Both the position numbers and the translations under genes were made by a program. A stretch of DNA of 64,000 nucleotides from Pseudomonas oryzihabitans. Lineage in GTDB: Bacteria; Pseudomonadota; Gammaproteobacteria; Pseudomonadales; Pseudomonadaceae. The notes under the pieces were generated by a model. The model saw only the letters and a program-made list of their open reading frames with translations. It had not been told where the DNA came from and did not search any database. Positions within the stretch are counted from its first letter, which is position 1, and each line of letters starts with the position of its first letter. The stretch is taken from positions 3,742,501-3,806,500 of the forward strand of contig NZ_CP013987.1 of assembly GCF_001518815.1 (NCBI RefSeq), in the 5' to 3' direction. Positions 30,511-33,951 of the stretch are shown here, piece by piece.

Positions 30511-31365
30511 TCAATGCTTGGCCGGTTCGGTCACGGGGGTGGCAGCGATAGCGGGATCACGCCAGGCCACGGCCAGACCGTTCGGATAACGCAGATCGAT
30601 CCGCGCGATATTGTCCATCTGTGCCTTGAGCACCTGATCGTACAGGCGCATGAAGCGCCGCATCTTTTCCACCAGCTGGTCGCGGCCGAACACCAGTTCC
30701 AGGCCCTGACCAGTGGTGAGGTACCAGCTGCCGCGCTCCTGCATTTCCAGGCGTGCCACGGTGTAACCGAGCGGCCGGAGCATCTGGCTGAACATCTGGT
30801 ACTGCTGCATCACTTGCTGCTGGGCCCGTTTGGGGCCATACAGTCGCGGTAGATTGTCATAGTTGGCCAGATCCTGTGGGGCAAAAGCCTCACCCTGGTT
30901 ATTCAGCAGCGCCTCGTCACCCCAACGGGCGATGGGCATCTGCTCTTCCAGGCGGATGCTGATCTCGTCAGGCCAGACCCGACGCACCTCGGCATGGGCG
31001 ATCCAGGGCATGGTTTCCAGTTCGTGGCGCATGTCGGCCAGGTCGACCTGGAAGAAGGTGGTACCCACGAAGGGAGCGATGCGCTGCTGCACCGCTCCCT
31101 GACTGATATAGGACAGATCGCCCTTGACGCTGACCTTGGCGATTGGCCGGTCGGCATAAGGCAGCAGCTTCTGGGCCCCTTCGTAGGTGCCAAAGCCCAA
31201 TCCCAGCAGCAGGAACGGCCAGAGGATGCGCTTGAGCAGGCCCAGGCTTGGGCGCGGCAGGCGCGTCGACAGCGGCTCTTCGGCGACCAGGCGACTGGCG
31301 CCCCGCTGCTCGACATTGCGCGAACGGCCAAAGCCGGGCTGGTTGTGACGTAGGGTGGCGACCAA
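30511..31365 (-). CDS. ftsQ: Cell division protein FtsQ
   Basis: This 284-residue bitopic divisome protein has a short cytoplasmic N-terminus, one membrane helix ([19 protein letters not shown]), a POTRA domain (ISKVSV-like [20 protein letters not shown]) and a periplasmic beta domain that recruits FtsL/FtsB. The start is TTG at 31365. The N-terminus ([17 protein letters not shown]) aligns by eye with pseudomonad FtsQ, and GGAGGG lies nine bases upstream inside the mini-ORF that replaces ddlB. Expression is therefore probably coupled to that mini-ORF. Confidence 0.95.
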
Positions 31366-31368
31366 GGT

Positions 31369-31434
31369 TCAGCCCTCCACGTGCGCGCCGGCAGCAGGAA
31401 CTGCCAGCAATAGGTTGGATGGATGACGGCTCAT
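31369..31434 (-). CDS. 21-codon ORF occupying the ddlB position
   Basis: This ORF begins with an ATG that overlaps the murC stop (ATGA) and ends three bases before the ftsQ TTG. It encodes 21 residues, [10 protein letters not shown] then [11 protein letters not shown]. In other gammaproteobacterial dcw clusters a ddlB gene of about 310 codons fills this position. I see no clear DdlB sequence in it; it may be a fused remnant of ddlB ends or random sequence selected to keep translational coupling and to carry the GGAGGG site for ftsQ. Whether the peptide matters is unknown. Confidence 0.5.
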
Positions 31435-32888
31435 GCCGAGCTCCCAGCGGTCGCGGCGGTGGCGAACAGCGGGTGGTTGAGCAGTTGCGGCGCCAGCGCA
31501 CCGATGTCGCCCGCGCCCTGGCACAGCAGGATGTCGCCTGGGCGCAGCAGCGGTTTGACCAGCGGGGCGATGTTGCTGCCACGCTCCACATAGATCGGAT
31601 CGAGCTGGCCGCGCTGGCGAATGCTATGGCAGAGCTGACGGCTGTCCGCCCCGGGGATCGGCTCTTCGCCGGCCGGATAGACTTCCATCAGCAGCAGGAC
31701 GTTGGCATCGGCCAGGACCTGGACGAAGTCCTCGTAGAGATCGCGGGTGCGGCTGAAACGGTGCGGCTGATAGACCATCACCAGCCGGCGCTCGGGCCAG
31801 CCACCGCGTACGGCCTTGATCACCGCGGCGACTTCACGCGGGTGGTGACCGTAGTCGTCGACCAGCATGACGCTGCCGCCAGCGACCGGCAGTTCGCCGT
31901 AGACCTGGAAGCGCCGCCCGACCCCTTGGAAGCCGGACAGACCATTGAGGATGGCCTCGTCGCTGACGCCTTCGTCGGTGGCAATGGCGATGGTGGCCAG
32001 GGCGTTGAGCACATTGTGCACGCCCGGCATGTTGACCGAGACCGCCAGCGGTGCACGCCCCTCACGTAGGACGGTGAAATAGGTGCGCATGCCTTCCTGG
32101 CGGATATCCACGGCGCGTACGTCGGCGTCTTCGGCGGTGCCGTAGGTGACGGTGGGACGAGCGACCTGGGGAATGATCTCGCGCACCACCGGGTCGTCGA
32201 CGCAGAGCACGGCCAGGCCATAGAACGGCAGGTTGTGCAGGAAATCGACGAAGGTGCGCTTGAGCCGATTGAAGTCACCTTCGTAGGTGCTCATGTGGTC
32301 GGCGTCGATGTTGGTGACCACGGCGACCATGGGCTGCAGGTGCAGGAAGCTGGCGTCGCTCTCATCGGCCTCGGCGACCAGATAACGGCTGGTGCCGAGC
32401 TGGGCGTTGGTGCCGGCGGCGTTCAGACGTCCCCCGATGACGAAGGTGGGATCCAGACCCTCGGCGGCGAACACCGAGGCGATCAGGCTGGTGGTGGTGG
32501 TCTTGCCATGGGTGCCGGCGACGGCGATGCCATGACGATAGCGCATCAGCTCGGCGAGCATCTCGGCGCGAGGCACCACGGGAATGCGCTGTTCGAGGGC
32601 AGCGGACACCTCGGGATTGGATCTGTTGATGGCGCTGGACACCACCAGAACGTCGACCTGATCCAGGTTTTCCGCGCGATGGCCGATATAGATGCGCGCA
32701 CCGAACTGCTGCAGGCGTGCCGTGACCGCGGACTCCTTGAGGTCGGAGCCCGAGACTTCGTAACCCAGATTCAGCAGCACCTCGGCGATACCGCACATGC
32801 CGACGCCACCGATACCGACGAAATGGATGCGCCGAATGCTGCGCATGCGCCGAACCTCGGCCTGAATGGCACTTTGCGACTTAACCAC
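31431..32888 (-). CDS. murC: UDP-N-acetylmuramate--L-alanine ligase
   Basis: This 485-residue Mur ligase adds L-Ala to UDP-MurNAc. It has the N-terminal Rossmann [17 protein letters not shown], the ATP loop [10 protein letters not shown], the central [12 protein letters not shown] and the C-terminal [10 protein letters not shown]. The start is GTG at 32888, overlapping the murG stop by eight bases; the open frame further upstream is murG antisense-frame sequence. Its stop overlaps the following mini-ORF, where ddlB would normally start. Confidence 0.97.
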
Positions 32889-33951
32889 GGGCAACCTCCA
32901 GACAGGCGTCGACGACGGCACGGGTCGCATCGGGTTTGGCCAGGGCACGGCTGCTAGCGGCCATGTCGGCAAGACGTTCGGGATGCATCAGGACCTCGGT
33001 AAGCTGCGCGGCGAGATCCGCCGGGCGGGTGGAATGTTGGGGCAGCACCACACCGGCACCGGCACGCTCCAGGAAGCGGGCGTTGCTGGTCTGGTGGTCG
33101 TCGATGGCGTGAGGCAGCGGAATCAGCAGCGCCGGCAGGCCGGTGGCCGTCAGCTCGGCGACGGTCAGGGCACCGGCCCGACAGATCACCAGATCGGCCC
33201 AGGCATAGGCAGCGGCCATGTCGGCGATGAAGGGCTGGACATCGGCCTCCACCGCGGCATTGGCATAACGCTCGGCGGTCACCTCGGCATGCTGGCGGCC
33301 GGCCTGGTGGCGCACATTGGGCCGCAGACCAGCGGGCAACTGGGCCAGCGCCTCGGGCAACAGCTTGTTGAGCGGCTCGGCGCCCAGGCTGCCACCTAGC
33401 ACCAGCAGGTTGGCGGCGCGCTCGTCCAGCGGTGCGCGGGTCACCGGGGCGAAGAGTTCGGCGCGCACCGGATTGCCGGTGGACAGGCGTTTGGCGGAGG
33501 CCGGGAAGGTATCGGCGAAGCCTTCGCACACGCGCGCGGCCAAGGGCACCAGCAGGCGATTGGCGGTGCCGGCATGGGCGTTCTGCTCGTGGATCACCAG
33601 CGGAATATTGCATAGCTTGGCCGCCAGGCCACCGGGACCGGTGACAAAGCCGCCCAGGCCCAGTACGCAGATCGGCTTGAGCCGGCGCATGAGACCTATG
33701 GCCTGCATCAGGGCGCCGCTGAGTTGCAGAGGCGCCTTCACCAAGGAGCGCATGCCCTTGCCGCGCAGACCGGTGACTGGAATGTGGTGCAGGGTAATGC
33801 CGGCCTTGGGCACCACATCGTTTTCAATACCGCGCGGGGTGCCCAGCCAGTGGACGGTATAGCCGCGGGCTTCGAACTCGCGGGCGCAGGCCAGCGCCGG
33901 GAAGACGTGCCCGCCTGTGCCACCCGCCATGATGAGGACGTTAGCGGACAT
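32881..33951 (-). CDS. murG: UDP-GlcNAc:undecaprenyl-PP-MurNAc-pentapeptide GlcNAc transferase
   Basis: This 356-residue GT-B glycosyltransferase converts lipid I to lipid II at the inner membrane. The glycine-rich loop [14 protein letters not shown] is at residues 8-21, the second G-loop is [13 protein letters not shown], and the UDP-GlcNAc-binding segment is [13 protein letters not shown]. The ATG at 33951 is the family start and overlaps the ftsW 3' end by 11 bases. Confidence 0.97.

Follow-up and report, generated by a model that had tools for sequence, protein, structure and literature searches.

Which enzyme joins D-alanine to D-alanine in a bacterium whose dcw cluster has no ddlB, and what became of the gene? 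This question is raised by a stretch of 64,000 nucleotides from Pseudomonas oryzihabitans (contig NZ_CP013987.1, positions 3,742,501 to 3,806,500; hereafter the window), where a mini-ORF of 21 codons takes the place of ddlB between murC and ftsQ. PMC8871954 describes the history of the dcw cluster as mainly one of gene loss or delocalisation and mentions ddlB for the FBC superphylum. The case described here resembles such losses in that ddlB leaves the cluster and its neighbours keep their order; it differs from them in its restriction to a single clade within one genus, in its probable in-frame scar and in having an identifiable replacement. Among open-licence papers, none was found on the loss of ddlB in the P. 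oryzihabitans clade.

The case is a lineage-specific loss in which a non-orthologous Ddl replaces the dcw gene; loss from the dcw cluster is itself already known, and the gene replacement is of an ordinary kind. Its merit is that of a clean experiment of nature: a distant relative appears to have taken over from a cell-wall enzyme that bacteria need, the original gene has gone from one of their most highly conserved clusters, and sister species still show the earlier state. The swap also places a D-Ala-D-Ala ligase gene behind dnaB, the gene for the replicative helicase. The locus is likewise a natural setting in which to ask whether coupling of murC to ftsQ requires that the spacer be translated.

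The murC-ftsQ junction

The neighbours of the missing gene are intact. The genes of the cluster lie on the minus strand in the order ftsI-like, murE, murF, mraY, murD, ftsW, murG, murC, ftsQ, ftsA and ftsZ. The products of murC, murG, murD, mraY, murF, murE, ftsA and ftsZ each score above the cut-off of at least one NCBIfam model; ftsW is named from its position alone, and the ftsI-like protein falls under its NCBIfam cut-off and is named also from its place. The name of FtsQ rests on the model score (Table 1), the place of the gene and Pseudomonas relatives; the protein is 98% identical to that in records of P. oryzihabitans. The real start of murC, which is listed from a TTG, probably lies further inside the ORF.

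The sequence-only reading had described a gap of 65 bp without ddlB, a 21-codon ORF overlapping the murC stop and a GGAGGG motif inside this ORF, and all of this is borne out by the letters. The gap spans 31366-31430. The ATG of the mini-ORF overlaps the murC TGA (31431-31433) as ATGA, and its own stop ends 3 nt ahead of the ftsQ TTG. Ahead of the ATG, roughly at the position of the ddlB Shine-Dalgarno (SD) site in relatives, stands an SD-like GGGAG, which is present in eight of the ten clade genomes (defined below) and reads GGAGG in the other two. A consensus scan of 31250-31700, which is of little weight, found neither promoter nor terminator.

Table 1. Features of the murC-ftsQ junction (positions in the window) and of the ddlA locus
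Feature	Position	Strand	Remarks
ftsQ	30511..31365	-	NF008043 140.7 bits, under cut-off 366; TTG start at 31365
Clade-invariant stretch, 38 nt	31346..31383	-	mini-ORF end, SD, TTG and first ftsQ codons; comparisons of ten genomes and of nine loci
mini-ORF, 21 codons + TGA	31369..31434	-	present in 10/10 clade genomes
GGAGGG, SD-like, for ftsQ, within mini-ORF	31373..31378	-	from sequence; invariant in 10/10
GGGAG, SD-like, ahead of mini-ORF ATG	31441..31445	-	from sequence
murC	31431..32972	-	TIGR01082 569.9 bits, cut-off 335.1; match begins at residue 48
gtrII-like gene	L130 3772-5313		next after ddlA in 10/10 clade genomes
ddlA	G000:C1:4287336-4288352 (L130 5334-6353)		339 aa; about 0.51 Mb from dcw cluster

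Distribution of ddlB among relatives

Our genus sample comprised 13 genomes, ten of the P. oryzihabitans clade (G000, G001, G003, G006-G012) and three of its sister group (G002, G004, G005). The 65-bp junction recurs with identical layout and length in all ten clade genomes, and ddlB stands between murC and ftsQ in all three sister-group genomes (loci L017 from P. luteola, L018 from P. asuensis and L027 from P. duriflava). The comparison with other Pseudomonas that the sequence-only reading had proposed was made on 80 loci, kept out of 495 relatives; eight of its loci (L009-L016) together with L017, L018 and L027 come from the same genomes as the genus sample and were not counted twice. Eight of the 80 loci have the short junction, and in each of the remaining 72 (70 from Pseudomonas and two from records labelled Pantoea) a frame of 315-330 aa stops shortly before ftsQ. 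In the nine loci whose translation was inspected, the frame between murC and ftsQ reads as DdlB.

Counted as protein matches irrespective of adjacency to murC, as are all family-wide figures given here, DdlB is present at E<=1e-80 in 386 of 398 family genomes when a sister-group DdlB serves as query. The 12 genomes without it are the ten of the clade together with G415 (78% complete) and G559 (91% complete); since the MurC search finds only a 32-33% match in these two, the dcw region is probably missing from their assemblies. In the clade itself, the protein search of all ten genomes found no DdlB at this threshold.

These counts bear on whether ddlB was merely relocated, the outcome against which the earlier claim of a loss had been set. 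For the genome of the window a simple relocation is excluded, as it holds no orthologue: the best DdlB match, here as in G010, is a DdlA of 40% identity. A Ddl does exist elsewhere in the genome, but its low identity and its place outside the Pseudomonas DdlB group in the tree described below leave relocation next to no credence.

A probable replacement ligase behind dnaB

The same reading had expected the ligase to lie elsewhere as ddlA, and the genome-wide search that it called for located it. A search at E<=0.001 with the Ddl C-terminal family gave ten matches in the genome, nine of them of at most 43 bits and one of 186 bits. This single strong match is a DdlA. It scores above the TIGR01205 cut-off (292.8 vs 245.65 bits) and above those of both PF01820 and PF07478, and it aligns over 337 residues, at 442 bits, with the D-alanine--D-alanine ligase A chains PDB 8evx and 8evv, which we take to be from P. 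aeruginosa; with E. coli-type chains such as 1iov the score is about 198 bits. Kept in relation to 1iov are the glutamate of GGTS-ER, the serine of KPS--GS, a lysine-tyrosine pair, an arginine and the NT-PGMT stretch. These residues are presumably catalytic, and we assume that the lysine-tyrosine pair is linked with specificity for D-Ala. The DdlA of this genome is a complete Ddl and, being the sole strong one there, would supply D-Ala-D-Ala in place of DdlB.

A cluster without ddlB could also be taken to mean that the peptidoglycan stem differs or that D-Ala-D-Ala is not made, and the former had been held out as a possibility for this genome. This is scarcely credible in view of a complete Ddl above the TIGR01205 cut-off, of the lysine-tyrosine pair that it has in common with 1iov, and of the presence of MurF.

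In all ten clade genomes ddlA starts inside the last codon of dnaB, overlapping the dnaB stop, and the gene order is dnaB-ddlA-gtrII-permease-ygiQ, with the permease gene on the other strand; the arrangement suggests that ddlA shares a transcript with dnaB. In all three sister-group genomes dnaB is followed by ygiQ. Eight of ten other sampled family genomes (the exceptions being G407 and G429) have an alanine racemase gene directly behind dnaB, found with the dadA-linked racemase as query and 47-51% identical to it; we take this gene to be alr. No racemase was found at dnaB in the 13 genus genomes, each of which matches the alanine racemase C-domain just once, and this one racemase lies beside dadA in all four genomes inspected (G000, G002, G004, G005). 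The clade locus is like the dnaB-alr pair of Pseudomonas in having a gene of D-alanine metabolism directly behind dnaB, and unlike it in that this gene is ddlA. Read most simply, alr was lost from the dnaB locus in the genus, and ddlA later appeared there in one clade.

The gtrII-like gene next to ddlA diverges faster than ddlA, with 78.6-100% identity to the copy of the window's genome vs 95.9-100%.

Ancestry of DdlA

Matches of the DdlA type at E<=1e-70 are confined to 11 of the 398 family genomes, namely the ten of the clade and G492, whose copy is 65% identical. The G492 protein and the 8evx chain score alike (442.3 and 442.5 bits), and for this reason G492 is probably P. aeruginosa. G492 carries DdlA besides DdlB, which shows that DdlA alone does not lead to the loss of ddlB, and its ddlA lies away from dnaB, unlike that of the clade. 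No DdlA type was found in the three sister-group genomes, two of which have another second Ddl, 36-37% identical.

The tree had 46 rows: eight of the ten clade DdlAs, G492, two relatives from the plasmid collection, the second Ddl of an Acinetobacter plasmid, the two second Ddls of the sister group, 19 class-level matches and 13 of the 72 DdlBs. Clade DdlA, G492, B. stagnalis and the Acinetobacter plasmid copy form one group (support 100/98), and the Pseudomonas DdlBs form a separate one (100/100). DdlA thus groups with the 8evx type apart from DdlB, with the G492 copy as a stand-in for that type and in a tree that carries long-branch warnings, including one where the second Ddls of the sister group join the DdlA group on the side of the root.

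Outside the clade, the class sample (369 genomes) yielded no match to DdlA above 44% identity and the phylum sample (398 genomes) none at E<=1e-65. The plasmid collection gave matches of 57.2% (Acinetobacter plasmids) and 55.5% (a 3.2-Mb replicon of B. stagnalis). No donor was found in the class, phylum and plasmid samples; ddlA, patchy as it is in the family, was presumably gained by horizontal transfer.

On the Acinetobacter plasmid (L196 3416-7035) two divergent Ddl genes flank a transposase gene; the region holds two transposases in all and genes of biosynthetic type, with an aminotransferase gene and a DXP-synthase-like gene close by. It is perhaps a natural-product or self-protection cluster. 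Such a setting of ddlA would suit a mobile lineage.

The mini-ORF as a probable deletion scar

The sequence-only reading had called the loss of ddlB precise, and the lengths agree with this. Sister-group ddlB, stop included, is 951 bp long in two loci and 948 bp in the third, and the mini-ORF is 66 bp long, a difference of 885 or 882 bp that is in frame. With the ends anchored, both sides of the mini-ORF are closer to sister ddlB than random stretches are. The 18 nt that follow the ATG give P 0.0005 in the window and 0.001 for the ten-genome mean; with the stop as anchor the final 18 nt give 0.0065 and 0.009 and the final 12 nt 0.015, and the 12 nt ahead of the ATG reach only 0.0495. These P values come from 2000 random stretches and stand uncorrected for the four tests, and the similar stretches are short. 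Without anchoring the agreement is weaker: the 5' end of the mini-ORF located its own place in three of eight ddlB genes, with shuffle fractions of 0.02 (L017), 0.005 (L018) and 0.735 (L019, not significant), and went elsewhere in the other five; the 3' end located its own place in none of the eight. The mini-ORF is probably what an in-frame deletion inside ddlB left behind as a scar.

Together with the evidence on DdlA, this leads to the reading that we prefer, at a probability of roughly 0.88: ddlA was gained behind dnaB, ddlB was then deleted in frame, leaving the mini-ORF as a scar, and DdlA makes D-Ala-D-Ala for MurF. The ancestor of the clade would have acquired a second ligase of the DdlA (PDB 8evx) type directly behind dnaB, perhaps along with the gtrII-like gene, after which DdlB from the dcw cluster would no longer have been needed. 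An internal deletion of some 295 codons (about 885 bp) would then have removed ddlB. On one side its start and SD would have survived, on the other its final codons and stop together with the ftsQ SD, and these remnants would form the 21-codon mini-ORF, whose peptide would be of no consequence. At present, DdlA from behind dnaB would make the D-Ala-D-Ala used by MurF. The absence of ddlB, the one strong Ddl at dnaB in the genome of the window and the occurrence of both features together in all ten clade genomes are direct observations. As both changes are in all ten genomes, there may have been one event of each kind; their order is unreadable from these genomes, and that ddlA came first is what we infer.

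Does the mini-ORF have a function?

The DNA of the mini-ORF differs among all ten clade genomes. With changes mapped by codon position on a murC + ftsQ tree of the ten genomes, codons 3-17 show 45 changes on 45 sites, or 0.80, 0.93 and 1.27 per site at positions 1, 2 and 3, as against 0.046, 0.025 and 0.895 in murC and 0.074, 0.042 and 0.65 in ftsQ. Since codons 3-17 have no codon-phase bias, the peptide is not under visible selection; it looks neutral. A new functional micropeptide would account for the fact that start, stop, frame and last codons are kept in all ten genomes, codons 18-21 and the stop showing no change on 15 sites. The kept last codons, however, contain the ftsQ SD, and positions 1 and 2 of codons 3-17 change at a rate close to that of the third positions in murC and ftsQ, so that a micropeptide is highly improbable.

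It is easier to conceive that the mini-ORF is a kept coupling ORF, that is, that ribosomes leaving murC restart at its ATG, traverse it and reach the ftsQ SD and TTG, thereby setting the level of FtsQ. Frame and length would then matter and the peptide would not, which is compatible with a scar origin. The mini-ORF does have the layout of a coupling ORF, with a stop-start overlap upstream (the ATGA shared with murC, preceded by its SD-like GGGAG or GGAGG) and the SD of the next gene inside. Its 66-nt length and its frame are the same in all ten genomes despite the many changes on the middle sites, and no insertion or deletion was seen in them. By comparison, the convergent gap between gtrII and the permease gene, 0.5 Mb away in the same ten genomes, measures anything between 106 and 209 bp and holds apparent repeats; the ftsA-ftsZ gap is 54 nt in six and 55 nt in two of eight loci (L010, with an ftsA of 359 codons and a gap of 218, being excluded) and is nearly free of substitutions. 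Both gap-length comparisons are unmatched for constraint, however, and are poor matches to the mini-ORF. An open frame is also what chance would give: that no stop arose has P = 0.60 under no selection, and frame +2 is likewise open in 10/10.

The start codon of ftsQ, which is TTG in all ten clade genomes and ATG in the three sister-group loci, would fit a coupling role. The predicted RNA fold at this site, uncorrected for base composition, is -15.7 to -17.6 kcal/mol in the clade (ten genomes) and -9.5 to -12.5 kcal/mol in the sister group (three loci). The 38-nt invariant stretch around it was considered as something special and rejected, as in the nine-locus alignment longer invariant runs occur at the starts of ftsA (80 nt) and ftsZ (60 nt); the invariance at ftsQ is therefore ordinary conservation of an initiation region.

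The mini-ORF may thus pass ribosomes to ftsQ, and coupling as a kept function is conceivable, with the odds somewhat against it. The earlier suggestion of selection for ftsQ expression keeps a slender basis in the invariant ftsQ start and the constant frame length; the neutral peptide, the chance expectation for an open frame and the longer runs at ftsA and ftsZ weigh on the other side. Less likely again is a fuller version, in which the deletion scar was co-opted as a ribosome-relay ORF from murC to ftsQ, free in sequence and balanced by the weaker TTG, with D-Ala-D-Ala synthesis moved to the dnaB operon. If it were true, the output of a division protein would be tuned by the mini-ORF.

Two interrupted frames, both in the one genome G001, were encountered in the genes compared here. 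Its dnaB (L131 4563-5950) is split into two overlapping frames near its end, and its ftsA (L010) ends after 359 codons, short of the usual 414; either frameshifts or sequencing errors would produce both.
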